In this document: piece after piece, positions 26,448-52,513 of the stretch
How positions within the stretch are numbered: position 1 is the stretch's first letter
Layout: each line of letters begins with the position of its first letter
Assembly: GCA_943787535.1 (NCBI GenBank)
Contig: CALSMU010000004.1
Coordinates: 186,001-250,000, forward strand
Direction: 5' to 3'
Length of the DNA: 64,000 nucleotides
Origin: an uncultured Flavobacteriales bacterium
Lineage (GTDB): Bacteria; Bacteroidota; Bacteroidia; Flavobacteriales_D; Parvicellaceae
Notes under the pieces: model-generated
Databases searched by the model: none
What the model was told of the DNA's origin: nothing
Seen by the model: only the letters and a program-made list of their open reading frames with translations
Made by a program: the position numbers and the translations under genes

Positions 26448-26462
26448 GAGGTCTCTGCCGGA
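26448..26462. repeat. att site, left end of element A (tRNA-Cys 3' tail copy)
   Basis: GAGGTCTCTGCCGGA is identical to the 3' part (acceptor and T-arm) of tRNA-Cys at 52443-52513 and is repeated at 43949 and 52441. It marks the host-element junction. Confidence 0.85.
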
Positions 26463-26574
26463 CTAGAAGTATTGTATTTGTATTGATTTCATTTTAATTT
26501 ACTAGCCCTTTTTGGCCCTAAAAATAGGTGTTTTTTTCTAATGTGGTAAAATAAGTAATAATTAATTAAAGATA

Positions 26575-26600
26575 ATGTTTGCACATATGTTTGCACTTTA
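26575..26600 (+). repeat. Arm-type repeats, left end of element A
   Basis: Two direct copies of ATGTTTGCAC occur side by side (26575-26598). A related pair lies at the right end of the element (43869-43892), as expected for integrase arm sites. Confidence 0.55.
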
Positions 26601-26624
26601 GTAGATTTGAGAAAAGAATGAAAG

Positions 26625-27929: not shown

Positions 27930-27931
27930 AT

Positions 27932-28423
27932 ATGATGGAAGTGAATGATGAAGGTACGGAAGAGTTTAATTCGATAGTACGATTTATAAGGTATTTACCA
28001 CTTGGGGAGGAAAGAAGATTAACGATTGAGGAATTGTTTTACGGTTACGTGAACATGGCAGAGGATGTTGTAGAGGTCGTTTTGCCAAAAATAATTTCTC
28101 ATGCTAAGCAGTTTGTGGAGGAGCATGTAGTGGACTATATAGTACCTAAGCTCAGTGCTAGTGGAAGGACAGCTCTTCAGGTGAGTTATCATGTGCAAAG
28201 TTATTACAATACACTTCCAGCGCTTATTAATGACAAAAATATTAGATGTGCTTCCTTGGATGTTGCTATGGAAAACTTATTCCTAAGTACACAAGATTTC
28301 CCAATGGAGAATCAGCGAGTTAGCGAAGTTAATATTAGGTTGGATTCAAGAGTGGGTAGTGTTTTTAAAAATAGCGCTTCAGAAGGTTTTTTTTTACTTT
28401 ATGAAGAGCAGGATGGAAGATGA
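27932..28423 (+). CDS. Uncharacterised element protein, 163 aa
   Basis: The gene starts 2 bases after the integrase stop, so it is likely cotranscribed. The product is acidic and mostly helical, with no signal peptide or known motif. The following ORF (28401-28646) overlaps its end in the +1 frame beside a run of nine T; the two may be one gene split by an indel, but each is plausible alone. Confidence 0.5.
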   Translation: MMEVNDEGTEEFNSIVRFIRYLPLGEERRLTIEELFYGYVNMAEDVVEVVLPKIISHAKQFVEEHVVDYIVPKLSASGRTALQVSYHVQSYYNTLPALINDKNIRCASLDVAMENLFLSTQDFPMENQRVSEVNIRLDSRVGSVFKNSASEGFFLLYEEQDGR

Positions 28424-28646
28424 AGAATTCACTTCCAATAAGTGGATTAGTTTTATGTTTAGGGAGATGGAGGTTCATGAAGGAACAGGAGAAATTGTTT
28501 GTATTCAGAAGGAGTATGTAGAGTTTTGTATGCGCCAATTAGGTGTCAAAAAACTGAAAATTAAGACAAAAGAGAGCATTGGTAATTATGTAATAAAGAA
28601 AAAGAGGTTAAAGACATTTAGAGAATTATATAAAGATAATAGTTAG
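28401..28646 (+). CDS. Uncharacterised small element protein, about 81 aa
   Basis: I use ATG 28401 (MKSRMEDEEF); ATG 28413 is the alternative. The product is basic in its C-terminal half (KKLKIKTKESIGNYVIKKKRLK), which may indicate nucleic-acid binding. It overlaps the preceding gene by 23 bases in the +1 frame, so it may be coupled to it or a continuation of it. Confidence 0.4.
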   Translation: MKSRMEDEEFTSNKWISFMFREMEVHEGTGEIVCIQKEYVEFCMRQLGVKKLKIKTKESIGNYVIKKKRLKTFRELYKDNS

Positions 28647-28716
28647 AACGATTGGGGAACGATTAGGGAACGAATCATGAATTTCATTTGTATTGAATTT
28701 ATAAAAACAATACAAA

Positions 28717-29004
28717 ATGACAGATCTAATACAATTAATTACAATTACTCCTAAGGAATTTCGAGACCTACTTTTAAAGGGTTTTATTCTAGAGTTAAAC
28801 AAGCTAGAGCTTAATCAAAATAAAGAGACTAAACTCTTAACAAGAAAAGAAACAGCAGATTTTTTTAAGGTCACTTCTCAAACCATTATTAATTGGGAGA
28901 GAGATGGAATAATTACCTCAGTCGATATTGGGGGTGTTATTCGATATAAAAGAGATGAGGTAGAAAACCTAGGGAATAATACTGAAGGGGGTCAAAATGA
29001 TTAA
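28717..29004 (+). CDS. Helix-turn-helix (excisionase/MerR-like) protein of element A
   Basis: The 95-residue protein has an N-terminal helix and a C-terminal winged helix-turn-helix of the excisionase type (LTRKETADFFKVTSQTIINW, then GGVIRYKRDEVE). Such proteins bend DNA in excision or regulate replication genes. It overlaps the following 63-aa gene by 8 bases and is separated from the replicase only by that gene. An equivalent gene (46316-46609) precedes the replicase in element B, so the pairing is conserved and points to a role in initiating or controlling replication as well as excision. Confidence 0.8.
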   Translation: MTDLIQLITITPKEFRDLLLKGFILELNKLELNQNKETKLLTRKETADFFKVTSQTIINWERDGIITSVDIGGVIRYKRDEVENLGNNTEGGQND

Positions 29005-29188
29005 TTCATTTAACAACTCCGAAGCTAAAAATCATCCCAAGGGGAATAGGTTAGAGGCGTTTTTAAGGGCTGTAACGGAGGTTTCTCATATTTCTGACCA
29101 TAACCTTCATATTGTAGCAAACCGCTTAAATATAGAAGCGGAAATTCTTGCAATAGAGATACTAGCAAAAGGAGGGAAGCTGCTATGA
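28997..29188 (+). CDS. Small protein of 63 aa between the HTH and replicase genes
   Basis: The start lies inside the HTH gene and the stop overlaps the replicase start in an ATGA arrangement, which strongly suggests a real coupled gene. The peptide is helical and charged, with no known family. Element B has no equivalent between its HTH and replicase genes. Confidence 0.5.
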   Translation: MINSFNNSEAKNHPKGNRLEAFLRAVTEVSHISDHNLHIVANRLNIEAEILAIEILAKGGKLL

Positions 29189-30498
29189 GAACAAGTAAGC
29201 CAATAATCCTATTCGTTCCGGATTCATTTATTACAGAGCTTGATGACTACCTACATGAGAATCCTCCGGGGTTCAGCTTTAATAGGGTGAACTTTTATTA
29301 TGTAGCCCATCACCTCATCAAGTTACAAATCCAATTTAAGAAAGAGGAATATCATTACTTGAATCTTGAGTGCCTTAAAAAAGTAACCTGCAGTAAAATT
29401 GGTAGATATATTAAACTGTTGCGTGATGGAAAATTTGTTCTAGGGAAAGAGTTCTATGTAAATGGATTCAAAGCATACAGATACAAGCTAAATGAGACAC
29501 ATATAGAGTGTGTTTCAAGAATTGAATTAACACGAAAGTCAAAATTAACAAAGAAAATTATGAAATTACAGAAAAATACAAAAGCCAACTATAATAGACA
29601 GGAACCGCATGTGAAGGTTCTAAGAGAAGAATTTATGAAAATGGAACTTGAGTATGATAGTGCTTATGAATGGGCTAACAAGAGTTCTGATCCTTTGAAA
29701 AAATTAAGCTACTTGACATCTCTTTACCATCTTGAGAACAAAAGCTTTCGATATTGTGGCAGAAATAAAACTAACTGTAGATTAGATACCAACTTAACTT
29801 GCTTGAAAAGTGATTTTCGAAAATTTATTAATGGGGACTATGTAAGCATTGATGTTAAAAATTCCCAACCGTTCCTGTTAAGTGTGCTAATAGATGCTAT
29901 TATTCACGACAGGGGTACCTTATGTGGTCACTTAGGTAAGGAGTATCTGGCTGGAACGTTTGGTGTAAAAGGGATTCAAAGATGTTCTTTCGTTCATCAA
30001 AATCAAGAAAAAGCGTTTTTGATGAACGTTAGAAACTATGCTGAAGCTGTAATCGAAGGGGTGCTTTATGATGATTTTGTTCGTTCATACCCAGGTGAGA
30101 TTAAAAGAGATAAAGCAAAGGATATAACATTTATGGTCCTCTTTTCTCAAAATGAATGTTACACTAGGTTGGGCAAAATGATCCCATATGAGGAAGAGAA
30201 AAAGGTATTTGCAACTGTCTATCCATTTATTTATAGAATCGTTAAAACACTGAAGTTAAAAGACTATAAAGCTCTTCCTATATACTTACAGAAACTTGAG
30301 AGCTACTTGTTTATAGATTGTATAGCAAAGAGGCTTATTGAAGCTGGTATTGTCCCACTGACTATTCATGATTCAGTTATTGTAAAGTCGGAAGATCAAG
30401 CTAAGACGCTAGCTATAATGAAAGAGGTGTTTATAGAGCAAATAGGAGTGACACCAAGCTTCAAAGTAGAGAGGCTAAAGGGTGATAGTGATGGCTAA
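29185..30498 (+). CDS. TV-Pol-like replicase of element A (superfamily-A polymerase motifs)
   Basis: The 437-residue protein has three motifs in the order of family-A polymerases. Motif A is YVSIDVKNSQPF with Asp223, preceded by a block RLDTNLTCLK and RKFI that parallels GRLSSNNPNLQ and RKAFI of the PolA encoded at 1278. Motif B has Arg308, Lys312, Phe316 and Phe320 at the exact 4-residue spacing of the O-helix (PolA R774/K778/F782/Y786). Motif C is LTIHDSVIVK with His395-Asp396. It lacks nuclease domains. The layout matches the TV-Pol family proposed for mobile elements and some viruses, predicted to have primase and polymerase roles. It is coupled to the small gene upstream. Activity is inferred. 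Confidence 0.75.
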   Translation: MRTSKPIILFVPDSFITELDDYLHENPPGFSFNRVNFYYVAHHLIKLQIQFKKEEYHYLNLECLKKVTCSKIGRYIKLLRDGKFVLGKEFYVNGFKAYRYKLNETHIECVSRIELTRKSKLTKKIMKLQKNTKANYNRQEPHVKVLREEFMKMELEYDSAYEWANKSSDPLKKLSYLTSLYHLENKSFRYCGRNKTNCRLDTNLTCLKSDFRKFINGDYVSIDVKNSQPFLLSVLIDAIIHDRGTLCGHLGKEYLAGTFGVKGIQRCSFVHQNQEKAFLMNVRNYAEAVIEGVLYDDFVRSYPGEIKRDKAKDITFMVLFSQNECYTRLGKMIPYEEEKKVFATVYPFIYRIVKTLKLKDYKALPIYLQKLESYLFIDCIAKRLIEAGIVPLTIHDSVIVKSEDQAKTLAIMKEVFIEQIGVTPSFKVERLKGDSDG

Positions 30499-30841
30499 CC
30501 TAAAGGGATCTAGGGTGAGTCAGTTGTTTAACAAAAAGAAACGATTCATACTAGGTCTCTGTCTCAAAGTGACTTTCTCTTTGCGTTGAGGGGGGGGTAT
30601 AGATTAATGTTACTATAGCCCACGTGTGAAAAAGGAGTAATGTTCATTTAGCGCACCTCATCGTGTTTTGCAGTTAATTACAGCGTAAATTACCTTAAGC
30701 ACAGTATTACTTGGGTGTATAAATAGTATTGTGAAAGTTTATACCAAAAAAAAGTACAAAAGAAGTTTGACTTAGTCTTATTGTTTATGGTAGGTTGGCT
30801 AATTGGTTCCTTAACTTGTAATTGACTGGGCTATTTCTTCT
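30499..30841. other. Intergenic stretch between replicase and remnant
   Basis: No ORF, RNA or clear hairpin is recognised. It contains an A/T-rich stretch and a run of eight G (30590-30597). It is probably a deletion scar or the region of element replication control; nothing decisive is visible. Confidence 0.3.
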
Positions 30842-31090
30842 GTGGAGTATTTGGTGTCCATTATAATCATACAAGAGAGAATGGAGAGTACAAGATTTTT
30901 CGATAAGGTGTCACAAGAGCTTGTAGATAATGGTATAGTGCCTTTTACGATACATGATTCAGTAATCGTCAAGAGAGAGTATGCTGAGAAGACTCTTGAG
31001 ATAATGAAGAGTAACTTCCTAAGGGAGTTTGGTGTGGATGCTTCGTTTCATGTTGACCCACTCAATCCAGGGTCTCCTAAAGTTGAATAA
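30842..31090 (+). pseudogene. C-terminal remnant of a second TV-Pol-like gene
   Basis: The frame has RMESTRFFDKVSQELVDNGI followed by VPFTIHDSVIVKRE, which aligns with residues about 370-402 of the intact replicase (LQKLESYLFIDCIAKRLI... LTIHDSVIVK). Motifs A and B are absent. Identity is moderate, so it derives from another lineage, not a recent copy of the neighbour. It shows that a further element once occupied or recombined with this locus. Confidence 0.7.
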
Positions 31091-31296
31091 AAGCTGATTG
31101 AACATGAGAATGCTGATGAGGTGCCAATAGGTCTGAATAGCGAGTCCGTAGGCTCGTTAGAGGGAGCCCATGCTGGCACTGCAGCTTCTTTTCTTTCAAA
31201 GAATGATTTCGCAACACTTACCTTATCATTCTTCCAATCAATTTTATTTTTCATTCTATCATATTTACGTATATTTACATACATAATTATGATAGA

Positions 31297-34200
31297 ATGA
31301 AAAAAATATTACTATCCATCACCCTTGTTCTTTCCTTTATGTCGATTAATGCTCAAAACTGGATACAGTTAGGGAATGGCATAGCACCCGAAGAGAGTGG
31401 TGACCGTTGGGGCCATTCTGCCACAACAAGTGCTGACGGTAACACTGTGGCTTGTTCAGCTCATTGGAATGGAGTTGGTGACGAAGGTCATGTTAGAGTA
31501 TTTGAATGGAATGGCTCGGCCTGGGTTCAAAAAGGTGGCGAAATTAATGGAGAAGGTGGTGGAGACAATAGTGGCCAGGGTCAGGGTGTTAGCTTAAGTG
31601 ATGATGGGAATGTAGTTGCAATTGGGTCTCGATGGAATGATAACTTTAATGGGAGTAACTCTGGCCATGTAAGAGTTTACGAATGGGATGGATTAGCTTG
31701 GGTTCAAAAGGGAGGTGATATAGACGGTGAAGATGCTAATAATTGGTCAGGCAGGTCAATCTCAATTAACTCCAATGGTAATGTTTTAGCCATAGGCGCC
31801 TCTGGAGGCAATGGGTCTACCGGACAAGTAAGAATTTATGAGTGGAATGGAATTGCTTGGGTTCAAAGAGGTGTTGATATTCACGGTTCAAATGTTAATG
31901 ATGGATTTGGGTATTCGGTTGGTATTGACTCTGCAGGCGTTTCATGTGTAATTGGAGCAAATTATAACCTTATGCAGTCTGGACAGGTAAGGGTTTATGA
32001 TTGGGATGGATTTACTTGGATTCAAAAGGGAGTTGATATCCAAGGTGAAAATGTTAATGATGAATCGGGACAAAGTGTATCTATAAATGCTACAGGTGAT
32101 GTTATTGCAGTTGGAGCTGCAAAAAACGATGGAAATGGAGCTGAAGCTGGTCAAGTAAGGGTTTTTGAGTGGGATGGATTAGCTTGGGTTCAAAGAGGTA
32201 TTGACATAGATGGTGTTACTGCCGGTGATTATTTTGGGTACTCTATAAGTTTAAGTTCAGACGGAAACAAATTAGCTGCTGGAACTTATAACCTTTCTAG
32301 TGGATATGTCCAAGTTTTTGATTGGAGTGGGACTGCTTGGATTCAATCGGGCATGAACCTCACTGGAGGGGGGGGCAACTATTTTGGATGGTCAGTTTCT
32401 TTAAATAGTTTAGGAACAAGATTAGCAGTGGGTTCTCCTGTAAATAATGGAGAATTGAAAATATTTTCAATTGGTTCTGCCTGTACTACGATTCAATCTA
32501 TAAATAACATTAATATTTGCAATGGTAATAGTTATTATGCGGAAGGAGCAAATCAAACAGTTTCGGGAATATATTATGACACTTTACCAGCAATAACTGG
32601 GTGTGATAGTGTAATTACTACAAATTTGGTTGTTTCTCCACAAATTATAATAACTCCATCGATTTCAAATGACAATGGTTCTGGTATTGGAATAATTGAT
32701 ATTTCAGTATCGGGAGGAAGCTCTCCGTACAGCTACTCTTGGTCAAATGGCAGTATAACGGAAGGCCTCATAAATTTAACTTCTGGTAGTTATTCGGTTG
32801 AAGTAACCGACTCTATTGGTTGCACAGCAAATGAAACGGTAAATATTATCAACTCGTGCAGTATGAATCTTACTATAAATTCTATAGGGACTTCTTGTGG
32901 ACAAAATGATGGTGCCACTTCTGTAAGTCTTACAGGAGGAACCCCTCCATATAATTACGAATGGTCAAATGGTGCAACCACCTCTTTGATAGCCACTTTA
33001 GATGCGGGTTTATATTATGTAACTGTTACTGATGATAACGGATGTATTGAATATGGTACAGCAACTGTTAACGATTCTCCTGGAGCAACAATATCAATTG
33101 CCACTACTCCAACTTCATGTTTTGGTGGAGCAGATGGAGCAATAGATGCTGCAATTAGTGGAGGAACTACACCATATACTTTTGCATGGTCTAACGGTGA
33201 AGCAACTGAAGATATTACTGGATTAGTTGCTGGACAATACCAACTGCAAGTAACGGATGCTGACGGATGTATTACTAATGATAACATTACTATTACAGCA
33301 GCAACAGCTCTTGAGATAACAACAACTGTAACCAACTCTTCTTGTGGTGGAAATACTGATGGAGCAATCACTTCAACAGTAACTGGTGGTACAGGTGCTT
33401 ATACTTACTTTTGGAGCACCACTGCAACAACTGCTGATATTAATGGATTGGTTGCTGGAGTTTATATGCTTACTGTAACAGATGCAAATGGATGTATGGA
33501 TTCTACTTCTGTTTCAGTTAATGAAGAAAATGGTCCTGTTGTGCATTTAGATTCTGTTGTATCTGCTTCTTGTGGTGGACTTGGTTCTGCTTATGTATCT
33601 GCATATGGTAACGCTCCATTTACTTATGCTTGGAGCAATAGCGAAGTAACACAAGACTTGATTGATGTAATACCAGGAACGTATCAATTAGAGGTAACTG
33701 CAGCTGGTGGTTGTGTTTCTAATCTGTCTGTTGTTATTGGTAATGATATGCCAGTTGTGCAAGACATTTGTATTGTAACAGTAGATAGTGCTACCAATAC
33801 GAATACAGTTGTTTGGGAGAAACCAATTACAACAGCTATTGAGTCTTTCAATGTTTACAAGGAGAGCACCGTTGCTAATCAATACTTCTTAGCTGGTAAT
33901 GTGCCTTACGATAGCCTTAGCCAATTTAATGACCCTAATTCAAATCCAAATCAAAGAGCTTGGAGATATAGATTAACAAGCGTTGATACCTGTAATGTTG
34001 AATCTGAAATGGGAACAATTCATAAAACGATTCACCTTACTGTTAGCTTAGGACAAGGAAACGACTACAATCTAGCATGGAATCATTATGAAGGGTTTAC
34101 ATACGGCAGCTACTATATTAGTAGGTGGAGTCCAAGCACTGGTTGGGTTAACATTGATACAATACCTTCAAACCTTAATACATACACAGACTTTAGTCAA

Positions 34201-35088
34201 CCACAGGGAAATGTGTTTTATTCTATTGAAGCTGAGCATCCGACTGGGTGTACATCAACAAAAGCACAAGACCATAATTCAACTAGGTCAAACAGACATA
34301 CTTCTATTGGAGGTGCTGCACCCTCATCAGATTTTAGTTCTTCTGGAACACAAATTGTTTCAGGTTCAAGTATTGACTTTTTCGATCAGTCTATAAATAA
34401 CCCAACAACTTGGAGTTGGAATTTGTATGGAGCCAATCCGTCTACTTCAACCGATCAAAACCCAACCAATATTACTTATGGCAGTACAGGGTTTTATGAT
34501 GTTAGGTTAATCGTAAGTAATGCTAATGGGATAGATACTTTGGTGAAAACAAATTACATAGAAGTAATCGCACCAGGAGGTGCTGCTCCAACATCAGATT
34601 TTATTGCGAGTACTACCCAAATTCAAGAAGGAAGTTCTGTTGATTTTTTAGATCAGAGCCAAAATAATCCTACTTCATGGACATGGGTATTTGATGGAGG
34701 AAACCCTGCTTTTTCCACCAATCAATCACCCACTGGAGTTTTATACAATGCAGCAGGTAGTTATGATGTAACACTTATAGCAAGTAATTCTTTTGGAGTA
34801 GATACTTTAGTTAAAACAACTTATATTAATGTAGCTACATCAAATTCAATAAATGAAAATGGATTAGGTAACTTAACAATTTTCCCTAACCCAACATCCG
34901 ACCAAATTACAATCGATATAAAGGGTTATAATGGAGTTGTTAATGTTGAGGTGTATGACTTACAAGGAAGGCTATTAGAAACCACCACAAACACCACTGT
35001 ATCTCTTAAAAAACACGCCAAAGGAATCTATGTTCTTAAGGTGAGTTATGGAGAGGTAACTGAAGAGTTTAGGGTAGTTAGGCATTAG
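31297..35088 (+). CDS. Large T9SS-secreted adhesin-like protein, 1263 aa
   Basis: A signal peptide (to about residue 19) leads into repeated beta units (about 25-390) of the type GQVRVYEWNGIAWVQRG, resembling FG-GAP-like propeller blades. These are followed by SprB-type repeats (about 440-830; GGTPPYNYEWSNG), two PKD-like domains (about 1010-1180; SSIDFFDQS...WSWN) and a T9SS type A sorting domain (NLTIFPNPTSDQ to the end). It should be exported through T9SS and attached to the surface, acting in adhesion or capture. It is cargo of element A and depends on the host's T9SS. No frameshift is seen. Confidence 0.88.
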   Translation: MKKILLSITLVLSFMSINAQNWIQLGNGIAPEESGDRWGHSATTSADGNTVACSAHWNGVGDEGHVRVFEWNGSAWVQKGGEINGEGGGDNSGQGQGVSLSDDGNVVAIGSRWNDNFNGSNSGHVRVYEWDGLAWVQKGGDIDGEDANNWSGRSISINSNGNVLAIGASGGNGSTGQVRIYEWNGIAWVQRGVDIHGSNVNDGFGYSVGIDSAGVSCVIGANYNLMQSGQVRVYDWDGFTWIQKGVDIQGENVNDESGQSVSINATGDVIAVGAAKNDGNGAEAGQVRVFEWDGLAWVQRGIDIDGVTAGDYFGYSISLSSDGNKLAAGTYNLSSGYVQVFDWSGTAWIQSGMNLTGGGGNYFGWSVSLNSLGTRLAVGSPVNNGELKIFSIGSACTTIQSINNINICNGNSYYAEGANQTVSGIYYDTLPAITGCDSVITTNLVVSPQIIITPSISNDNGSGIGIIDISVSGGSSPYSYSWSNGSITEGLINLTSGSYSVEVTDSIGCTANETVNIINSCSMNLTINSIGTSCGQNDGATSVSLTGGTPPYNYEWSNGATTSLIATLDAGLYYVTVTDDNGCIEYGTATVNDSPGATISIATTPTSCFGGADGAIDAAISGGTTPYTFAWSNGEATEDITGLVAGQYQLQVTDADGCITNDNITITAATALEITTTVTNSSCGGNTDGAITSTVTGGTGAYTYFWSTTATTADINGLVAGVYMLTVTDANGCMDSTSVSVNEENGPVVHLDSVVSASCGGLGSAYVSAYGNAPFTYAWSNSEVTQDLIDVIPGTYQLEVTAAGGCVSNLSVVIGNDMPVVQDICIVTVDSATNTNTVVWEKPITTAIESFNVYKESTVANQYFLAGNVPYDSLSQFNDPNSNPNQRAWRYRLTSVDTCNVESEMGTIHKTIHLTVSLGQGNDYNLAWNHYEGFTYGSYYISRWSPSTGWVNIDTIPSNLNTYTDFSQPQGNVFYSIEAEHPTGCTSTKAQDHNSTRSNRHTSIGGAAPSSDFSSSGTQIVSGSSIDFFDQSINNPTTWSWNLYGANPSTSTDQNPTNITYGSTGFYDVRLIVSNANGIDTLVKTNYIEVIAPGGAAPTSDFIASTTQIQEGSSVDFLDQSQNNPTSWTWVFDGGNPAFSTNQSPTGVLYNAAGSYDVTLIASNSFGVDTLVKTTYINVATSNSINENGLGNLTIFPNPTSDQITIDIKGYNGVVNVEVYDLQGRLLETTTNTTVSLKKHAKGIYVLKVSYGEVTEEFRVVRH

Positions 35089-35137
35089 GCCTTTTCAAAC
35101 TATTGTATAAAAGTTGGAAAGTTGTATATTTATCTAA

Positions 35138-36481
35138 GTGAGAAAAAAATATACCTACGATATAGTAAAAGCGGAAGCATTAAAATACACCACACGTTCT
35201 GAGTTTAGAAAAAAGAGTAGCGGACACTATGATGCGGCACTTCGACTAAAGATTGTTGATGAGATCTGTTCTCATATGGAGCGACTTAATAGAAAACCTT
35301 TTACTGCTGAAGAAATAAGATTAGAAGCCGCTAAGTTCCTAACTAGAGGTGAATTTGCCAAACAAAGTAATAGTGCATATGCCGCTGCATTAAGAAAAGG
35401 CATTTTAGATGAAGTCTGCTCGCATATGACTTTACTTCAACGCAAAAAATATACTCTTGAAGAATTAGAAAAAATAGCACTTGAATACAATACGCGAATT
35501 TCCTTTCGAAAATCTAATAATGGAGCTTACTCAGCAGCTTTAAGAAGGGGCATAATGGATGACATTTGTAAACACATGCACGCTGTTGGTAATCGAAAAA
35601 AAAGAGGTGTATATATTTTTGAATTTCCAGAAATAAAAACGGTTTATGTAGGTCTTTCTTACAATCTTGTGCATAGAAAGTCTACTCATTTACTTAATTC
35701 GCATAACAAAGGATTAAAGCAATTATTAGAAGAAAAAGCAACATATAACTATATAACTACTGGCAAGTATTATGATGCGGAGGTTGCTGCGCAAATTGAA
35801 ACAAACACAGTTTTAGACTATGAAAATAAAAACTGGACTATACTCAATATCTCAAAGACTGGAGGACTAGGAGGCGGAGAAGGAACATATACTAAGGAAG
35901 AATTAAAACAGGAAGCTAAATTGTATAAGAGTCGGTCGAAATTTAAAGAAGGTAGTCCGAATCATTACGCCGCTGCTCAAAGAAGAAGAATATTGACTTC
36001 AATATGCAAGCATATGGCAATTAAGAAAATTGAACCATACACTTTAGACTCTTTAATTGAATTATCTAAAAATTATTCATCTATTAGTGATTTAAGAAAA
36101 AACAAAAATGGAGCATATCAAGCTGCAATTCGACTTGAAATAATAGACCAATTAGGATTTAAAAGACAAACGAGAAAAAAAATTACTATTAAAGAGATAC
36201 AAGAGGAAGCTATGCTTTACAAAACAAGAAGCGAATTTGCCAAACAAAGTAATAGTGCTTATAATGCTGCTCAGCGTAAAGGCATTTTAGATGAAGTCTG
36301 CTCGCATATGACATTGGTCCAAAGAAAAAAATACTCCAACCAAGAGATAAAGGATATTGCATTGACATATGCTTCAAGAAATGAATTTAAAAACTCCTCA
36401 AGAGGGGCTTATGCTGCTGCAAGAGACAGAAACATCTTAGATGAAGTCTGCTCTCATATGCCGAAAAGAAAAAAGTCTTAG
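35138..36481 (+). CDS. GIY-YIG nuclease flanked by seven repeats, 447 aa
   Basis: Start is GTG 35138. Three repeats of about 48 residues (1-146) precede a GIY-YIG domain (about 157-245; GVYIFEF...VYVGLS, then HRKSTHL and an AQIETNTVLDYEN Glu), and four further repeats follow (about 251-447). The repeat consensus has EEA..Y.TR.EF.K...AY.AA.R..ILDEVCSHM. Repeats 2 and 6 are almost identical over 80 bases. The modules are likely DNA-binding units that place the nuclease. It might be a homing endonuclease or a defence nuclease. It is convergent with the nuclease/helicase pair. Confidence 0.75.
   Translation: MRKKYTYDIVKAEALKYTTRSEFRKKSSGHYDAALRLKIVDEICSHMERLNRKPFTAEEIRLEAAKFLTRGEFAKQSNSAYAAALRKGILDEVCSHMTLLQRKKYTLEELEKIALEYNTRISFRKSNNGAYSAALRRGIMDDICKHMHAVGNRKKRGVYIFEFPEIKTVYVGLSYNLVHRKSTHLLNSHNKGLKQLLEEKATYNYITTGKYYDAEVAAQIETNTVLDYENKNWTILNISKTGGLGGGEGTYTKEELKQEAKLYKSRSKFKEGSPNHYAAAQRRRILTSICKHMAIKKIEPYTLDSLIELSKNYSSISDLRKNKNGAYQAAIRLEIIDQLGFKRQTRKKITIKEIQEEAMLYKTRSEFAKQSNSAYNAAQRKGILDEVCSHMTLVQRKKYSNQEIKDIALTYASRNEFKNSSRGAYAAARDRNILDEVCSHMPKRKKS
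35351..35430 (+). repeat. Near-identical 80-bp repeat within the GIY-YIG gene, copy 1
   Basis: The segment encoding most of repeat 2 is almost identical at the DNA level to 36233-36312, with differences clustered in the middle. Confidence 0.85.
36233..36312 (+). repeat. Near-identical 80-bp repeat within the GIY-YIG gene, copy 2
   Basis: This is the partner of 35351-35430 and encodes repeat 6. Confidence 0.85.
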
Positions 36482-36538
36482 GAATTAACCCTATTCTCTG
36501 TTAGAAGATTTTTTTTAATAATTAATCTAACTAAGGTA

Positions 36539-37498
36539 TCAGGAAGTTAAATTTTGATACTTCTGTTTTAATAAAATCATCAAGTAATCCAAATCGATTT
36601 TCTTATCTAACTTCACTCTATATACACAGCCCTGTGTGCCATCTTTCCATGTCCATGAATATTCTTGAGTAATTTTTTTTGGGTCATCTAGGTCAAAGTA
36701 GTTTTTTGATTTTGTACCATCTGGTTTGATATTACCTCTTTGTATTTCAATGTTTATAAAAGCTTTCTTCCAACTAAAATATCCTAGCGTTTTATTTCCT
36801 ACCATCAAACTGATATAATTCTTTTTTGGTACAATATGCAAATCATCTAATACTTCAAGACGATCTTTTAATTCTTCCCATTTAGCTACTATGGCTTCAT
36901 CAGAATTAGCTGTATGATCTTCTTCACTAGATCTTTTTACTTCTCTACTAACAGATGCAATTACACTATTGCTTTTGGCACTTGATAATGATTCAATGCT
37001 TTCATTAGAAGTTGCTTGGTGTTTATTTAAGGCAATGGTTGAATTTGAAAACCTTTTTATTTCCCATAATTCAAAAGGAACATTCTTAAAATTAACACTG
37101 TCTTTTTGATAAGAGTTATAGGATGGTGAGACAAAAATTATTTTAGATTGACTCCAATCAATATCATCAGCACTTAAAACCTTATTCATGTGTTGAGAAA
37201 GTGTCAGAAGGAAATCTGATTTATTATTAAGCAGAAGTTGCAAATAAGTATAGCCTTGATCTATTACCGAATAACTTTTCCCCTTCTTATACTCGATAAT
37301 AACAAAAGATTTATTTTCCTTGTCATAACAAAGTGAATCAATTCGATACTTTCCAACTGTATATTCAGTTTTAATAAATTCCACATTGAAAAATGATTCG
37401 GTATTCTTTTCAACTAATTCTTGAATGTCTTTTTCTAACTTGAATGGGACTAGGTTCAATGACTTTGCTTGATTTTTTTTTAATTCATATACTTCCAT
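36539..37498 (-). CDS. PD-(D/E)xK nuclease-like protein with C-terminal DUF5655-type domain
   Basis: Residues about 45-75 have a restriction-nuclease core: a Tyr-Arg-Ile-Asp (KYRIDSLCYD) then IIEYKKG, giving the Asp and the Glu-x-Lys of the PD-(D/E)xK site. A Ser-rich linker (about 165-205) leads to a C-terminal domain of about 110 residues that resembles DUF5655 (KKNYISLMVGNKTLGYFSWKK). It starts 18 bases after the stop of the helicase gene, so the two form an operon. The pair looks like a DNA-degrading defence or restriction module; target and modification partner are unknown. Confidence 0.75.
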   Translation of the reverse strand: MEVYELKKNQAKSLNLVPFKLEKDIQELVEKNTESFFNVEFIKTEYTVGKYRIDSLCYDKENKSFVIIEYKKGKSYSVIDQGYTYLQLLLNNKSDFLLTLSQHMNKVLSADDIDWSQSKIIFVSPSYNSYQKDSVNFKNVPFELWEIKRFSNSTIALNKHQATSNESIESLSSAKSNSVIASVSREVKRSSEEDHTANSDEAIVAKWEELKDRLEVLDDLHIVPKKNYISLMVGNKTLGYFSWKKAFINIEIQRGNIKPDGTKSKNYFDLDDPKKITQEYSWTWKDGTQGCVYRVKLDKKIDLDYLMILLKQKYQNLTS

Positions 37499-37516
37499 AA
37501 ATTGTTTTTTCTGTTT

Positions 37517-40500
37517 TTACTCATTCCCAAAAAAGTCTTTCCATCCTTTCCATCCTTTGTCTTTGTATCTTCTCTGTGGGTTGGACGGTATATTAGAAGG
37601 TCTATTTCCATTCTTGCTCCATTCCTCCCAGTGTGTTTTTGATTTAATGTCTATTGATTTGATATATAATTTAGCTTGTTCAAATGTTTTAAACTCATTT
37701 TCTGGAAGCCCTAAGAAGTCTCTCCAACCTTTCCATCCTTGCTCTTTGTATTTTCTTTCTGGAAAGGAAGGTATATCGGATGGTTTATTTCCTGATTTGT
37801 TATACTCTCTCCATTCACTCGAGGATGAAAAGTTAAGGCTTCGAACAAATAATTTAGCTTGTTCAAATGTTTTAAACTCATTTTCTGGAAGCCCTAAGAA
37901 GTCTCTCCAACCTTTCCATCCTTTGTCTTTATAGAAAGTGTCGCATGTAGTTGGTATGTCGGATGGTTTATTTCCTGATTTTGAAAACTTCCTCCATTCA
38001 TTAGAAGATGAAAAGTTAAGGCTTTGAACAAATGATTTTGCTTGGTCGAATGTTTTAAACTCATTTTCTGGAAGTCCTAAGAAGTCTCTCCAACCTTTCC
38101 ATCCTTTGTCTTTATATGTTCTTTCAGGCGAGGCCGGTATGTCTTCTGGTTTTCCCCCTGATTTTAAATACTCTCTCCATTCTCTATTGCTTTTTAATTC
38201 TAGTTTAGATATATAGATTTTTGCATCACTAAAAGGTTTGAAATTTAACCTATTAGTGGCGACATTTCCAGAACCTAACCAATCACCCCAACTTTCCCAG
38301 CCCTCGTCTTTGTAAACTCGAGGGGCATTTGAAGGAATGTCGTTTGGTTTTTTACCTGAAGTGCAATAATTTCTCCATTCCTGTTCACCATTTAATTTAA
38401 GTTTTTGCACGATTTCTCTAGCAACTTTAAACTCCTTGTAAGTTTTTAGCCTGTTTGCTACGTTATTTGTACCTAGCCAATCACCCCAACTTTTCCATCC
38501 TTTATTTTTGTAAATTCTATCAGGAGCTGTAGGAATATCATTTGGTTTTTTACCTGATATGAAATACTCTCTCCATTCGTTCTCTCCTTTTAATTCAAGT
38601 TTTTGTACAAATTTTCGAGCATCAGAAAAACTCTTGAACTCCTTAAGTTGGTTCGCAACTGTATATGTCCCAATCCAATCACTATAGCCTTCCCAACCTT
38701 TTTCTGCATATATCAAATTAGGATTGCTAGGAATATCAGCTGGTTTTTTACCTGAAGTGCAATACTTGCCCCATTCGTTTTGATTGGATAGGTTCAAAGA
38801 GTGCACAAACTCCCTTGCCTCCTCAAACTCCATCCAATTAAACTTAGAAAGCTTCTCCCAAACCTTTATTTGCAGTTGTTTGGAGAGTTCCCCTTCGTCC
38901 ATGTATTCAGACAACACCTCAAAATTAAACTGCTCTTCAATCTCTTTTTGAGCTTTTGTGTTTATCTCTCCCTTATCTTTAAAATACTCTACAATTCTTT
39001 CGTCGTTGGCTGCCAAACCTCTAACAACATTTAGTATTTCATTAAAGTTATCGTTGTCTATTTCAGAAGTGGCATCATCGTAAATTACAGGCAGAATAAC
39101 ATAACCCCATTCTTTCCCTTTTTTTTTTCTCAACGCTCTACCAAGCGCTTGTACAATATCAACTCTACTTTTACGAGGGTCGGCAAATACAATGCAATCT
39201 ATGTTAGGAACATCAACACCTTCAGTTAAACAACGTGCATTGGTAATTAATGCTTTTTCTGAACGTGCAAACTCCTGAACTATGTCATTTCTTTTGGTAG
39301 TAGCATCTTTACCAGATACCGTATAAGTGTCTATTGGCTGATAATCATAAGTATCTGTTATGTGCTGCTGTAAGTCTTTGTTTCTTCTTGCTTTCTCAAT
39401 AGAAGAGTGGAAAGACACAGCATTTTTAATATTAAAACGCTTCATAGCCTTTCTAAGGGCTAACATAGAAGCCAAAGAACGAGCCTCAGTTTCTTTCTTC
39501 CACTTGTCGTTTAATTGTACTAGGTTATTGTCTTTTATAAAGTCGGCTATCTCCGATTTCTTTACATCAATGGTTATTACCTTATAGTCTGTAAGCAGTC
39601 CCAACTCAATGGCTTCTTTAAAGCTCATTAACGCAAACGTATCTCCATAGACATCTTCATCATCCATAGAGATAATATCATCCTTTGAACCTGCATAAAA
39701 CCTTTCGGTAGCAGTCATGAATATCCGCTTAGAAATAGCGATATTCTTCTCAAACAGTAAATGGCTGAAAAGCTTCTTGTCTGAACCCACTGTTTTGTGC
39801 GCTTCATCAAATATTCCTATATCAAATGTGAAGTTTAACCTTTTAGAAATCTCTGCTATAATTCGCCCACTTTGATAGGTTGTGAAGATGATTTTTTCCT
39901 CATTAATATTGTCTTTTAACCACTGCTCAATGTATTCAGGATCTGTTTGGCAAGGAACTCCTAAATTCTCTGTGTATATTACTACATCATCATTCTTTCC
40001 AATTCCTTCATCCGAGCATATACAGAGCCATTTAACCTCTTTGTTTGTAGCGACAATTTCTCGCAAGTAAACTTCTAAGGTTTGTTTTACAAGAGACAAA
40101 CTAGGAACAGCAATCAAAGTAGATTTTGATTTTAACTTTTGGGTCATCCAAAATCCAGTTAAACTTTTACCAGCTCCACAAGGAAAGATTAGCTTTCCTC
40201 TTGAATGGTTTTCTTTTCCAAAGTATTTAACGGCTTCTTTAAGCGCTTTGGTTTGATGTTTTCTAGGTTGAAAAGGTTTTAGTTTAATCTCTTTTCCTTT
40301 AAGTTGGGCATGGGCTTGTTTGAAAAAGTCTTCATCTAGTTTTTGCCAAACATCAGACATTAACGTGCTAATCTTATCCGTCTTTATCTTCTGAAAATTC
40401 TTAGATGTAACATCCGCACTTGAACAGATATACCCAAGCGTTAGTTTTTTGTTGCTTTCAAGCAATGAAAGAAATGTTGAAACTTCCTTAAAAGTTACTG

Positions 40501-40798
40501 ATGAGGTTTTATCACTATGGTATTTGCATTGTATTGCATGATACTCTTTCCCTGTCTTTGCAATTAAATCAATCCCTAAATCTTGAGCGGGTAGGTTTAG
40601 GTGCTCTAAAACTTTAGAAGGCACTTCTGATAGCATCCAAACTTCATCATATAAGCTTCTGTGTTCTGGGTTAATTTGAAAGTAAAGTTTTGTCAGTAAC
40701 TCAAACGCATCACCTTTTACCTTGTTATTTTCAAGGTCAATGGCTGACTTGAAGTCTAGCCAGTTTTTGGAGGATGATATGAGGGTTTTTGTGGTCAA
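37517..40798 (-). CDS. Mrr-like nuclease-SF2 helicase fusion with seven integrase-type repeats, 1093 aa
   Basis: The N-terminus (about 25-110) is an Mrr-like nuclease with Asp77 and Gln90-Cys-Lys92 (AIQCKYH). A superfamily 2 helicase follows, with Walker A Lys211 (CGAGKSL), DEAH 331-334, TAT motif III at 362-364 and motif VI QALGRALR at 550-557. From residue 656 to the end there are seven repeats of about 61 residues (for example EWREYNKSGNKPSDIPS... GWKGWRDFLG), the type known as phage-integrase repeat units. Three adjacent units are nearly identical in DNA at 183-bp spacing. It probably tracks along DNA and cuts it. No methyltransferase gene is near, so self/non-self discrimination is not explained. 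Confidence 0.85.
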   Translation of the reverse strand: MTTKTLISSSKNWLDFKSAIDLENNKVKGDAFELLTKLYFQINPEHRSLYDEVWMLSEVPSKVLEHLNLPAQDLGIDLIAKTGKEYHAIQCKYHSDKTSSVTFKEVSTFLSLLESNKKLTLGYICSSADVTSKNFQKIKTDKISTLMSDVWQKLDEDFFKQAHAQLKGKEIKLKPFQPRKHQTKALKEAVKYFGKENHSRGKLIFPCGAGKSLTGFWMTQKLKSKSTLIAVPSLSLVKQTLEVYLREIVATNKEVKWLCICSDEGIGKNDDVVIYTENLGVPCQTDPEYIEQWLKDNINEEKIIFTTYQSGRIIAEISKRLNFTFDIGIFDEAHKTVGSDKKLFSHLLFEKNIAISKRIFMTATERFYAGSKDDIISMDDEDVYGDTFALMSFKEAIELGLLTDYKVITIDVKKSEIADFIKDNNLVQLNDKWKKETEARSLASMLALRKAMKRFNIKNAVSFHSSIEKARRNKDLQQHITDTYDYQPIDTYTVSGKDATTKRNDIVQEFARSEKALITNARCLTEGVDVPNIDCIVFADPRKSRVDIVQALGRALRKKKGKEWGYVILPVIYDDATSEIDNDNFNEILNVVRGLAANDERIVEYFKDKGEINTKAQKEIEEQFNFEVLSEYMDEGELSKQLQIKVWEKLSKFNWMEFEEAREFVHSLNLSNQNEWGKYCTSGKKPADIPSNPNLIYAEKGWEGYSDWIGTYTVANQLKEFKSFSDARKFVQKLELKGENEWREYFISGKKPNDIPTAPDRIYKNKGWKSWGDWLGTNNVANRLKTYKEFKVAREIVQKLKLNGEQEWRNYCTSGKKPNDIPSNAPRVYKDEGWESWGDWLGSGNVATNRLNFKPFSDAKIYISKLELKSNREWREYLKSGGKPEDIPASPERTYKDKGWKGWRDFLGLPENEFKTFDQAKSFVQSLNFSSSNEWRKFSKSGNKPSDIPTTCDTFYKDKGWKGWRDFLGLPENEFKTFEQAKLFVRSLNFSSSSEWREYNKSGNKPSDIPSFPERKYKEQGWKGWRDFLGLPENEFKTFEQAKLYIKSIDIKSKTHWEEWSKNGNRPSNIPSNPQRRYKDKGWKGWKDFFGNE
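37681..38106 (-). repeat. Tandem 183-bp repeat, three near-identical cores
   Basis: Cores of about 60 bases at 37681, 37864 and 38047 are separated by exactly 183 bases (61 codons) and are nearly identical, encoding the end of one repeat and the start of the next in the helicase C-terminus. Confidence 0.85.
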
Positions 40799-40941
40799 TA
40801 TTCAATGAAATTACTAGTTAAAGTTAAAGCTTTGGGTCAGCTACTTGTTTACTAAAAACCCCACTAAAACTCATCTTCTCCGTTATTATGAAATATAATA
40901 ATTTTGTTGTTAATTTATTATTTAATGGCTATTGTTTTAGT

Positions 40942-41340
40942 TTAATTATAATTTACAATTTTTATTCTAGTAGCAATTGAGTATGACCCATCCATAGGGT
41001 AAATATAAACTACTTCTTCTTCTTCATAGTTAAATATAAATAAATACTTATTTCCTTGATCACTTATAGTATAATAAACATCTTGTTCTACTTCATTAAT
41101 AGTACTATCAATATAGTATGTTGATGTAAGATTATTATTATATGTTGAATGCTCAAATGATGTCTTTAAATCATTAAAAACAAATCCACTTATAAAGTTT
41201 GTATCATATCTACAATCTGAATATAATCTAGTTACATCATCACGAAAACATATTTCATATTCTGCGGTATATACTCTTAATTGTGCTACACCTACCATTC
41301 CTAAGAACAGCAGTGCAACAATGGTTAATATCTTTTTCAT
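40942..41340 (-). CDS. Small secreted protein of unknown function, 132 aa
   Basis: A signal peptide (to about residue 19, GVAQ) is followed by a roughly 110-residue beta-rich mature part with two cysteines. No family is recognised. It is probable element cargo and lies between the defence operon and the sigma factor, with about 140 bases of non-coding DNA on its 3' side. Confidence 0.55.
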   Translation of the reverse strand: MKKILTIVALLFLGMVGVAQLRVYTAEYEICFRDDVTRLYSDCRYDTNFISGFVFNDLKTSFEHSTYNNNLTSTYYIDSTINEVEQDVYYTISDQGNKYLFIFNYEEEEVVYIYPMDGSYSIATRIKIVNYN

Positions 41341-41461
41341 AGTTTTTGTTTTAAAAGGTGAATGTTTTTAATGTTAAAAGGGAACATTATTAATAGACGA
41401 TTTTTGTTTTGGATTTGTATATCTGTTGTTCTGTTTTATGCCCATCTGTTTGTGTTGGCTA

Positions 41462-41671
41462 TTAGTTTAACTTGTCAATACTTACTACAACCCTTACATC
41501 GCAAAATTCAGCAATCACAGCATGGTAAATCAAACCATGAAATAAGTAAAGTTCATTTTTGTTGGTGCCTTCCATTTCTCCTAAGAAGAAGGAATTATCT
41601 TTTATATAGAAATAGTGTATGCTTGGGGAATATTCCCCATCGTCAAAATCAATAAATACTGTGTTTCTCAT
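41462..41671 (-). CDS. Small hypothetical protein, 69 aa
   Basis: The peptide (MRNTVFIDFDDGEYSPS...) is acidic with no signal or known motif. It is preferred over the opposing frame because its composition is protein-like. Confidence is limited by length. Confidence 0.35.
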   Translation of the reverse strand: MRNTVFIDFDDGEYSPSIHYFYIKDNSFFLGEMEGTNKNELYLFHGLIYHAVIAEFCDVRVVVSIDKLN

Positions 41672-41742
41672 GTTTTCTTTTTTTAGTTACTTTTATAGTT
41701 AATTGATTGGGAAAATGAGATGTCACCTTTTTATTAAAAAAA

Positions 41743-42537
41743 ATGTTTGAAGAAGATTTTTTGGATACAGAATACTTCGGATGGTTGAAAGGAAGAAGTT
41801 CTATTCAACCAAGTAATCAACTCCAAGTAATTCAGAAGTATTTCAGAAACCAATTAAGACTTGAGTTACGGAGCTTATTGTATTTTGAGGAAAGTGATGG
41901 TTTAGACACCGATGTTAAGTTGTCTCCAATAACACAGGACAAACCTATTCATTCCTTTGAAGAGGACAGTCCAATGCCGTTCTCAAAAGATAAGATTGAA
42001 AAAGTTCCAAGTGACCAGGATAAAGAAAATAATTTAATCATTGGTTTAGTTTTAAAGGATAACAAGGCTTATATAGACTTATACGAAACGGAGTTTTCTA
42101 AAATAAAGGCATTAGTGCTCAAAAATTCTGGAAGTTTTGAAGATGCCAAAGATGTATTCCAAGAAGCGGTAGTTCTTCTAGTAGAGAAATTATCACAAAA
42201 AGGGTTTAAGTTTACATCTAAGGTAAGTACTTACCTTTATTCGGTTGCTAGGTATTTGTGGATAAATGAACTTAAGACAAGATCTCTCCGTGCTAACAAG
42301 CTTCAGCGGTTATATGATACATGTGAAGTATATATTGTAGACTATAATTTTGATAATGAAAAGGAAGAAAGTTTATTGTCTAAACTCAGTTATTTAGGTG
42401 AAACTTGTATAAAGCTTTTAGAGTATTATTACTATAAAAATTGGGAATGGTTGGATATAGCTAATGAATTAGGGTATTCATCTTCTTCAAGTGCAAGAAA
42501 TCAAAAGTTTAAATGTTTGCAAAAAGTGATAAAATAG
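41743..42537 (+). CDS. ECF-type sigma-70 factor of element A
   Basis: The 264-residue protein has an unusual N-terminal extension of about 95 residues, then sigma region 2 (DAKDVFQEAVVLLVEKL, with the TYLYSVARYLW DNA-melting part) and region 4 (ETCIKLLEYYYYKNWEWLDI, a helix-turn-helix). It should direct host RNA polymerase to element or host promoters. Its stop lies inside the following gene (25-base overlap), so the two are coupled. No recognisable anti-sigma factor is present; the extension or the partner might provide control. Confidence 0.85.
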   Translation: MFEEDFLDTEYFGWLKGRSSIQPSNQLQVIQKYFRNQLRLELRSLLYFEESDGLDTDVKLSPITQDKPIHSFEEDSPMPFSKDKIEKVPSDQDKENNLIIGLVLKDNKAYIDLYETEFSKIKALVLKNSGSFEDAKDVFQEAVVLLVEKLSQKGFKFTSKVSTYLYSVARYLWINELKTRSLRANKLQRLYDTCEVYIVDYNFDNEKEESLLSKLSYLGETCIKLLEYYYYKNWEWLDIANELGYSSSSSARNQKFKCLQKVIK

Positions 42538-43739
42538 TGAATATTCCAGTCCGAAATGTAATTGAAATGATGGCTTTATGCCATCCAGAAATAGTTGTTT
42601 TATTAACTATGCAAAATCGATCGGATATTATCAATGCCCCTGCTTTTAGAGATGTTTTTGCAGGCTGGCCTGAAGTATTCATAAACATAGAACAGGAAGA
42701 GACCCAAGTCAAAGCTGAAAAAGAATGGATTTGCATTAACAATATAGAGAGGGAACGAACATTCTCTTTTTTAGAAAAGAATAAAGAATTTATCAATTGG
42801 AAAACATTTAGTATAAATGGAGATATAATGTGGAATAGTGAAGTTGTTTCAGCTTTTTCTGATCAAATAAATTTTGGGGTGACTTCTATAAACGATGACT
42901 ACCCGAGAACAGAATTGAAAGATATCGAAAAACGTGTTAGAAGAGGTGAACGGTTTAGCTCAAAAGTATATACAGATTATTGGAGCCGACTTGGAGCTGA
43001 CAGAATACATGATGTATCAAGGATTAGGTGTGAAATGGGGGGGCTGAGCTCAAACCCAAAGTTAATTATTAATAATTGGTTGTTAGAGAGGTATAAGGAA
43101 AAATGGGATTATTATGCGCTTATACATAATGTTAGTTTGGATTGGGACTTGGAGTCTTTTCTTTTTGTTAAAGACTTTTACCTTTCGAGGGAAGATATTT
43201 TTCCATTAGATCATCCTGTTATGGCATATTCATTTAATCAGAATTTTAACGTTAGGCGTAGAAACTGCTTAGTTCTGCCTCGTTTCAGGATGATCAGTAA
43301 TGTTTTTCAAAAAAAAATAAGTTTAGATGACACATATTATTTGCTTCAAAAGCTTAATGCTTGTAGTGTCGATGTAAAACGAATGCAATATTTATATAGG
43401 TGTGATTACCAGTTTGATAAAAACTATGATCACTCTTTTATTAAGCCTAAAAAACCATATACAATTAAGATGAAGGCGTCTTTTAATAATTTAAATGTTG
43501 AGATTATTAATTGGTTCAAGCATGTAGACCCGGTCGAGTTTAAATTAATACTCTCAAAAATAGATTTAGAAAAAGTGAATCTTATTAAGTCTAAATTTAT
43601 TAATATTGAAGAGGGTAGAGGCTTGTGGGGAGTTAAGGTTAAAGAGCCCAGATCTGATTCATCGCCAAGTTTTAAGGATTTTTCTGGTCTATGTCCCGGT
43701 TGCGATTGCTCACCTTGTGAATGCAGCGATCCATTTTAA
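42513..43739 (+). CDS. Sigma-coupled protein with C-terminal cysteine cluster, 408 aa
   Basis: The gene overlaps the sigma factor gene by 25 bases. The product is soluble with no signal peptide, and its last residues are LCPGCDCSPCECSD, five cysteines in a C-x2-C-x-C-x2-C-x-C pattern that could bind zinc or an iron-sulphur cluster. The rest has no family I recognise, including a Tyr-rich stretch near residues 275-310. Its position suggests a regulator or target of the sigma factor, perhaps a redox- or metal-sensing anti-sigma factor; this is speculation. Confidence 0.6.
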   Translation: MFAKSDKIVNIPVRNVIEMMALCHPEIVVLLTMQNRSDIINAPAFRDVFAGWPEVFINIEQEETQVKAEKEWICINNIERERTFSFLEKNKEFINWKTFSINGDIMWNSEVVSAFSDQINFGVTSINDDYPRTELKDIEKRVRRGERFSSKVYTDYWSRLGADRIHDVSRIRCEMGGLSSNPKLIINNWLLERYKEKWDYYALIHNVSLDWDLESFLFVKDFYLSREDIFPLDHPVMAYSFNQNFNVRRRNCLVLPRFRMISNVFQKKISLDDTYYLLQKLNACSVDVKRMQYLYRCDYQFDKNYDHSFIKPKKPYTIKMKASFNNLNVEIINWFKHVDPVEFKLILSKIDLEKVNLIKSKFINIEEGRGLWGVKVKEPRSDSSPSFKDFSGLCPGCDCSPCECSDPF

Positions 43740-43868
43740 TTCAAGAAATCAAATTAAGTTCCTTTTATTGAGTAAAACTATTCTACATTTTCTAGCTAGA
43801 CTGAAAGGGGGTATGAGAAATCTAAATGGAAAAGAAAGCGTGAGGCATAAATAGGTCCGAAATATTAT

Positions 43869-43894
43869 TAGTTTGCACAAATGTTTTCACAATG
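43869..43894 (+). repeat. Arm-type repeats, right end of element A
   Basis: AGTTTGCACAAATGTTTTCACAA carries two imperfect direct copies of the TTTGCAC repeat seen at the left end (26575-26600). Confidence 0.5.
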
Positions 43895-43903
43895 CCCACA
43901 TAA

Positions 43904-43945
43904 AAAAACCTCAACTAACTCATTATAAGTCTGTTGAGGTTTTTA
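43904..43945 (-). terminator. Element-borne terminator next to the central att site
   Basis: A 12-base stem (AAAAACCTCAAC / GTTGAGGTTTTT) is almost identical to the hairpin at 52396-52436. It sits where a transcript from a tRNA gene restored by element A would end. Confidence 0.75.
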
Positions 43946-43948
43946 TTA

Positions 43949-43964
43949 AGAGGTCTCTGCCGGA
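43949..43964. repeat. att site between elements A and B (tRNA-Cys 3' tail copy)
   Basis: AGAGGTCTCTGCCGGA is identical to 52441-52456 and to the core at 26448. It is the junction of the two elements. Confidence 0.88.
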
Positions 43965-44077
43965 CGTCAAACAGTTTATTTCATTTAACTACATATATTG
44001 ATTTTACTGCCTTAAAAACCTTTAATTATAGGGCTTTATATTGTTGAAAGTAATATGAAGTTAAAATAAGTTAGGAG

Positions 44078-44102
44078 ATTGTGGGGTAAATTGTGGGGTA
44101 AA
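44078..44102 (+). repeat. Arm-type repeats, left end of element B
   Basis: Two tandem copies of ATTGTGGGGTAA are found here; the same 24 bases recur at the right end (52361-52384) in the same orientation. Confidence 0.75.
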
Positions 44103-44134
44103 TATTATATTTGAAATAATTAAATATTTCACAT

Positions 44135-45424: not shown

Positions 45425-45554
45425 ATTTAGAATGTGCTTTACCATCTTAGCTGTGCCCATAAGATTATATGTAGTTCTGGACTGAACAACAAGCAAAGAA
45501 AATAAGTCTATCTAATAAAATAGGATAAATTTACTTTATCAAATTATTTGCGAA

Positions 45555-46247: not shown

Positions 46248-46315
46248 GGAACTTTAATAAATCCCTATCAAATCCCTAAACTCTATTTGCTCATATCTAA
46301 TTAATAAAAGAAGTT

Positions 46316-47876: not shown

Positions 47877-47891
47877 ACCATTACAACTTTG

Positions 47892-50228: not shown

Positions 50229-50306
50229 AGTTTGAAGTTTAATAAGTCCCGAATATACAACTTTCAAATTTTTATACAATAGATAGAAGTAACGTAAATC
50301 TAACGT

Positions 50307-50588: not shown

Positions 50589-50691
50589 CCAATCTATCAA
50601 TACACGAAGTTCTAAATGCTATACGGTAGCGATAAACCTACATAACAAGAAACGACCGCTTCGCGGTATTTATAAAATTGTTAAATAATAG

Positions 50692-52384: not shown

Positions 52385-52395
52385 GTCATAAAAGA

Positions 52396-52440: not shown

Positions 52441-52456
52441 AGAGGTCTCTGCCGGA
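52441..52456. repeat. att site inside the intact tRNA-Cys gene
   Basis: AGAGGTCTCTGCCGGA covers the acceptor 3' strand and part of the T-arm. Together with the copies at 26448 and 43949 it bounds the two elements. Confidence 0.88.
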
Positions 52457-52513
52457 TTCGAACCGGCGTAGATGGTTTTGCAGACCACTGCCTAACCACT
52501 CGGCCAAGAGACC
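52443..52513 (-). tRNA. tRNA-Cys (anticodon GCA)
   Basis: The 71-base gene folds into a full cloverleaf. The acceptor stem is GGTCTCT / AGAGACC, the anticodon loop is CTGCAAAA giving GCA, and the T-arm contains GGTTCGAATCC. The discriminator base is T (U73), as required for cysteine tRNA, and CCA is not encoded. Its 3' end is the target of both integrases. It is the only complete copy; the others are tails. Confidence 0.95.

Follow-up and report, generated by a model that had tools for sequence, protein, structure and literature searches.

The larger of two adjacent genes in the window, the whole 64,000-nucleotide stretch of DNA analysed here, encodes a protein of 1093 amino acids in which an Mrr-type nuclease and an SF2 helicase-like motor are followed by an array of INT_rpt repeats. 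We consider it somewhat probable that this protein is an ATP-driven, defence-type nuclease in which a modular, fast-changing array that reads DNA, and not a methylase and TRD, determines the target. The data show (i) the architecture of the protein, (ii) its intact catalytic motifs, (iii) the hypervariability of the array, (iv) the lack of a linked methylase, and (v) the mobility of the gene; DNA binding, sequence specificity, translocation, cleavage, defence, and self-avoidance are inferred. The preliminary description of the locus was confirmed in part in what it observed and was supported in part in its interpretation.

Architecture of the large protein and its neighbour

Both open reading frames of the preliminary description lie on the minus strand and are separated by 18 bp (Table 1), and its account of the large protein as an Mrr-like nuclease, a helicase and seven repeats was borne out by domain matches and by an iterated repeat profile. 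The domain matches were to Mrr_cat_2 (E 1e-16), ResIII (1e-15), Helicase_C (2e-10) and INT_rpt. The array consists of tandem PF14882 units, the feature that defines INT_rpt membership; Pfam recognized six stretches of it (E 2.4e-8 across the array), and the iterated profile resolved seven units. A 41-base degenerate pattern of the repeat core has four matches in the window and none in 100 shuffles (0 expected). The description of three repeats as nearly identical proved overstated, as the pairs at 183-bp spacing are 82%, 73%, and 66% identical.

Table 1. Positions in the window of the large gene, its domains, the adjacent gene, and the integrative element that carries them.
Feature	Position	Strand	Details
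Mrr nuclease - SF2 motor - INT_rpt array protein	37517..40798	-	1093 aa, TTG start
Mrr-type nuclease domain	40364..40726	-	residues 25-145; D77, Q90-x-K92 kept in complete relatives
SF2 helicase-like motor	38999..40282	-	residues 173-600
Motor motifs			Walker A GAGKS 208-212, DEAH 331-334, TAT 362-364, QALGRALR 550-557
Seven INT_rpt repeats (hypervariable array)	37523..38827	-	residues 658-1092
PDC-S18 family protein, PD-(D/E)xK nuclease	36539..37498	-	319 aa, degraded DUF5655-like tail; local neighbour, not conserved partner
Integrative element A	26448..43964	.	17.5 kb, carries both genes; 15-bp att cores GAGGTCTCTGCCGGA
Tyrosine integrase of element A	26625..27929	+	PHROG integrase E 1e-19
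tRNA-Cys gene	52442..52513	-	3' end supplies att core

A phmmer comparison matched the large protein to the type ISP restriction enzyme LlaBIII with E 4.5e-58, the match stopping at residue 609, and a Foldseek search with the full predicted model also returned LlaBIII as the top match (4xqk, E 8e-34). By sequence and by predicted structure, the nuclease-motor half of type ISP restriction enzymes (LlaBIII/LlaGI) makes up residues 1-610. Over about 600 residues, the large protein shares 31-35% identity with type ISP proteins of the phylum. Among 84,980 species genomes scanned, we found 14 further members with the same nuclease-motor-INT_rpt fusion (loci L100, L101-L112, and L114), of which L103 and L108 are truncated by contig ends and L100 lies on the same contig as the sister genome G406/L067. 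The nuclease and motor motifs are intact in all complete members. In the full-length ones the first repeat starts at residue 652-674, and the repeat number across the family varies from 4 to 12.

The product of the smaller gene belongs to the PDC-S18 family, since the PADLOC PDC-S18 profile matches it over its full length (residues 1-314, E 4.9e-95). Weak NucS_C and HSDR_N_2 matches point to a PD-(D/E)xK fold, and the PD-(D/E)xK residues D54, E69, and K71 are conserved with 14 homologs. The nuclease part of the original assignment of this protein stands. The DUF5655-like tail, also proposed there, is not recognizable in the window copy: 14 of the 15 PDC-S18 members match DUF5655, and the window protein is the exception because its tail is altered or degraded.

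The two-gene module proposed initially was rejected as a conserved unit. No PDC-S18 gene is located beside the sister orthologue (69% identical to the large protein) or in the sequenced flanks, short on some contigs, of the other family members. In 15 other Bacteroidota genomes, PDC-S18 genes were found inside type I R-M operons (L073, L074, L077, and L083), beside type IIG or N6-methylase genes (L072 and L076), or alone, some of the neighbour genes being identified by eye from sequence. The window arrangement is thus local, and the PDC-S18 nuclease is best read as an optional neighbour of the large gene. In the four type I R-M operons, the PDC-S18/DUF5655 gene lies between the HsdM, HsdS, and HsdR genes, and its product is a possible accessory subunit.

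Variability of the repeat array

Comparison of the window gene with its sister orthologue revealed DNA identity of 98% in the final 30 codons before the array, about 41-64% inside the array, and 87% in the last 13 codons. The same contrast was observed at the protein level in three pairs of enzymes. For L106/L107, the frame is 86% identical and matching repeats are 32% identical, versus 35% for any two repeats; the respective values are 84%, 49%, and 47% for L105/L109, and 83%, 47%, and 44% for the window and sister proteins. The nuclease-motor frame is conserved, while repeats at matching positions resemble each other no more than random ones.

Each repeat unit comprises 61-66 residues in four short helices. 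With position j defined as residue 905+j of the fifth repeat, the near-fixed scaffold consists of F12, A15, W30, P44, P47, Y51, W56, D61, and G64, and the most variable positions among the repeats of one array are 27, 28, 31, 32, 45, 46, 48, 49, and 50. Judged from the secondary-structure assignment of the predicted array (mean pLDDT 86, global shape uncertain with pTM 0.40), these nine positions would occupy one face of helix 2, and helix 3 with the residues immediately preceding it. When similar repeats within an array are compared, the nine positions have Ka/Ks of 0.92-0.95 and the remaining ones 0.25-0.28. As the positions had been picked in the same arrays, which makes this comparison circular, it was repeated with arrays from outside the family (phage proteins, an IS66 transposase, and an HNH-like protein) and in reverse. 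Eight of the nine variable positions are shared between the outside arrays and the family (P 5e-8); positions picked in the outside arrays give Ka/Ks of 0.91 versus 0.25-0.29 in the family, and family positions tested in the outside arrays give 1.07-1.13 versus 0.22-0.24.

Thus, the array scaffold is under purifying selection with focused hypervariability, and within each unit the variable residues fall at shared positions, a pattern also seen in TALE-type readers. Values of Ka/Ks near 1 at the nine positions would fit diversifying and relaxed selection alike. In agreement with the earlier suggestion that the repeats may read a DNA feature, the array behaves like a specificity module, as judged from the contrast between frame and array and from the Ka/Ks values. 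The same data bear on a modification-dependent, type IV-like enzyme, in which the array would sense modified phage bases or an unusual DNA structure, the translocating nuclease would cut, and host DNA would not have the feature, so that a methylase is unneeded. The lack of a methylase is as expected for such an enzyme, and the ATP-dependent SF2-nuclease SauUSI (7clg) is a distant structural relative of the motor. However, a reader of a single modification should be conserved, whereas the repeat number (4-12) and the nine residues of each repeat differ even between enzymes that are 84-86% identical, and a domain search of the protein recognized no SRA-like or other base-flipping domain. We therefore regard a type IV-like enzyme as unlikely.

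INT_rpt repeats are fused to an IS66 transposase (L029). A large viral contig encodes them in a helicase-methyltransferase fusion (L032), and a 485-kb phage in an HNH-like protein (L035, identified by eye). They also occur in a ResIII helicase (L095), in a GIY-YIG protein (L092), and in a small protein with a nuclease-like C-terminus, likewise identified by eye (L094); one more INT_rpt protein is encoded directly after SbcCD-like genes (L069). Since all these contexts are DNA-acting, DNA would be the simplest ligand of the repeats. A literature search, with most subscription journals outside it, found nothing on INT_rpt as a DNA reader.

The array resembled none of the solved structures searched: the best Foldseek match had E 1.8 and VIA-align gave no match at Z >= 2. 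Two of the loci are of separate interest. The viral contig L095 contains three INT_rpt genes (2647-7998), including that of the ResIII helicase, which is followed by an overlapping gene for a five-repeat protein; these two resemble a split version of the fusion. In L069 (443-12041), SbcCD-like genes, the INT_rpt protein, a HerA-like ATPase, and an SMC-like protein form one run, a possible further defence-type island.

Integrative elements, hosts, and methylases

The 15-bp core GAGGTCTCTGCCGGA is present in three copies, at 26448, 43950, and 52442, the last being the tRNA-Cys 3' end. The copies delimit tandem integrative elements in one tRNA-Cys gene (26448-43964 and 43950-52456), each encoding an integrase about 180 bp in from the left end, and the large gene and PDC-S18 are cargo of the first element. 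The sister orthologue lies within a 10-kb element that has a 28-bp repeat of a tRNA-Pro end. These att repeats are solid evidence for mobility. Across the family, a tRNA gene lies no more than roughly 2 kb away in about 5 of 14 loci; with a rough uniform model P is about 0.01, which is only suggestive as an argument for mobility.

Several further features of these elements were observed. The integrases of the tandem elements share a DNA stretch that is 71% identical, and a 62-bp region at both right-hand att sites is 98% identical. The convergent neighbour at 35138-36481 (+) encodes a GIY-YIG protein (phrog_20046, E 5e-86) with seven repeats of about 45 residues around the nuclease domain, unlike INT_rpt; homology of the two repeat types was rejected, as profile comparison found no similarity. 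Related proteins with motifs like D-x-K/E-NSQPF and HDS are encoded in all three elements (window 29185-30498 and 46820-47876, the latter split into two frames; L067 11280-12506), and we presume that they may be family-A-like polymerases of mobile elements. A 132-aa secreted-type ORF (window 40942-41340, L067 4975-5373) has 95% DNA identity between the elements of the window and the sister, compared with only 78% for the helicase gene, and therefore appears to be recently exchanged cargo.

The location of the large gene raises the possibility of a device for element conflict or homing, with the array aiming the nuclease at rival or empty elements or at insertion sites for the sake of element spread and not host defence. 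In both the window and the sister, the gene is carried by a tRNA-integrated element, tRNA genes are found near it in several other loci, and the adjoining GIY-YIG nuclease has repeats of its own. Nevertheless, insertion in the window and the sister is explained by the tyrosine integrases at the tRNA ends and not by the nuclease, and such elements typically carry defence genes too; hence this explanation, which we hold to be improbable, differs from a defence role mainly in the beneficiary.

The family hosts are mostly Bacteroidota MAGs, together with one Terriglobia (Acidobacteriota) and one Desulfobacteraceae (Desulfobacterota) MAG. The architecture is sparse, as a sample of 395 genomes of the phylum contained it once, and an alignment-based scan of viral contigs yielded a helicase fragment only. 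Known or candidate defence genes neighbour two members: AbiEi/AbiEii and PDC-S02 in L102, and PDC-S13 in L110. Most members have core-gene surroundings with no obvious defence neighbour, which counts against a defence nuclease, the explanation we prefer. In two different genomes, DUF4379 treble-clef repeat proteins are encoded downstream of the helicase gene (L104 13016-14695 and L107 11155-12801). The distant similarity of the motor to RadD and XPB would suit a cellular helicase-nuclease of DNA repair with structural or protein-binding repeats, or a decaying remnant. The sparse and mobile distribution, the intact catalytic motifs, and an array scaffold that selection maintains while variability is focused argue against both, and we rate this explanation the least likely of all.

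The absence of a linked methyltransferase, noted in the preliminary description, extends to the relatives, as the [DNS]PP[YFW] methylase motif was absent from the 112 neighbouring ORFs of 14 of them. Searches of the sister genome with five Pfam families of DNA methylases gave no match or weak matches only, the best being N6_Mtase (E 4.9e-8) and Eco57I (6.7e-5), both in one 320-aa frame; we read these as putative PrmC-like core enzymes. Several other genomes with the large gene do encode DNA methylases, and a C5-methylase locus of the window genome contains in-frame stop codons. Thus, methylation is apparently dispensable in at least one host, and is not excluded in all.

Proposed mechanism and known systems

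We propose that the large gene encodes a self-contained, horizontally moved, ATP-driven restriction-like nuclease. The Mrr nuclease and the SF2 motor would act as in type ISP enzymes, with site binding followed by translocation and cutting, and the 4-12 INT_rpt repeats would replace the methyltransferase and TRD in target recognition. Each repeat would be a small helical unit whose conserved scaffold shows nine variable residues to DNA, and the array would determine which DNA is engaged. As the array evolves by duplication, loss, and substitution of units, specificity would shift while the engine remains constant. Self DNA would most likely escape through the length of a multi-unit site and its absence or rarity in the host chromosome, and not through methylation. 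The genes travel in small tRNA-integrated elements and would most likely target phages or rival elements.

A broader generalization is offered tentatively, with less confidence than the proposal for this protein: INT_rpt arrays may constitute a modular code in which each repeat reads a few bases through nine residues, and the family may represent a methylase-free, sequence-specific, ATP-driven restriction enzyme that separates self from non-self by target length and rarity and is retargeted by repeat shuffling, the same module being used in transposases, homing-type nucleases, and phage helicases. Unit-by-unit reading of DNA by the array would make this a restriction-type enzyme that can do without protective methylation, and a new way to settle self versus non-self. 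INT_rpt would then constitute a novel natural family of modular repeats that bind DNA, for which no structure has been solved. The idea is directly testable, given the nine variable positions and the closely related window and sister enzymes, whose arrays differ.

Comparison with known systems revealed several partial parallels. The type ISP enzymes LlaBIII and LlaGI (PDB 4xqk and 5ffj) share the N-terminal Mrr nuclease followed by an SF2 helicase-like ATPase. According to PMC4666363, a coupler, a methyltransferase, and a recognition domain come after this half in type ISP enzymes; PMC7049714 describes cleavage upon head-on convergence of translocating type ISP enzymes. In contrast, the coupler, methyltransferase, and TRD are absent from the chain of the 1093-aa protein, where the INT_rpt array directly follows the motor, and because the methyltransferase/TRD feature is absent, the protein is not type ISP by definition. 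The smaller protein belongs clearly with the PADLOC PDC-S18/DUF5655 nucleases, but its C-terminal DUF5655 motif is degraded and its gene lies outside any type I R-M operon.

The Actinobacterial Mrr-DEAD helicase-HA proteins (e.g., WP_064689746, Rhodococcus plasmid) have the same plan of Mrr, ResIII, Helicase_C, and C-terminal repeats, with 8 HA repeats and no methylase domain; the literature covered gave no function for them. HA repeats (PF03457) have no match in the 1093-aa protein, and homology of the HA and INT_rpt repeats was rejected, the two being dissimilar by profile comparison (hhalign probability 0.3%). The TALE, STAR, and MOON arrays (PMC11417379) share with INT_rpt the tandem units, the conserved scaffold, and the few hypervariable residues. 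INT_rpt differs from them in being unrelated in sequence, in its 61-66-residue four-helix units, in its fusion to a motor nuclease, and in that its putative reading of DNA is deduced from sequence.
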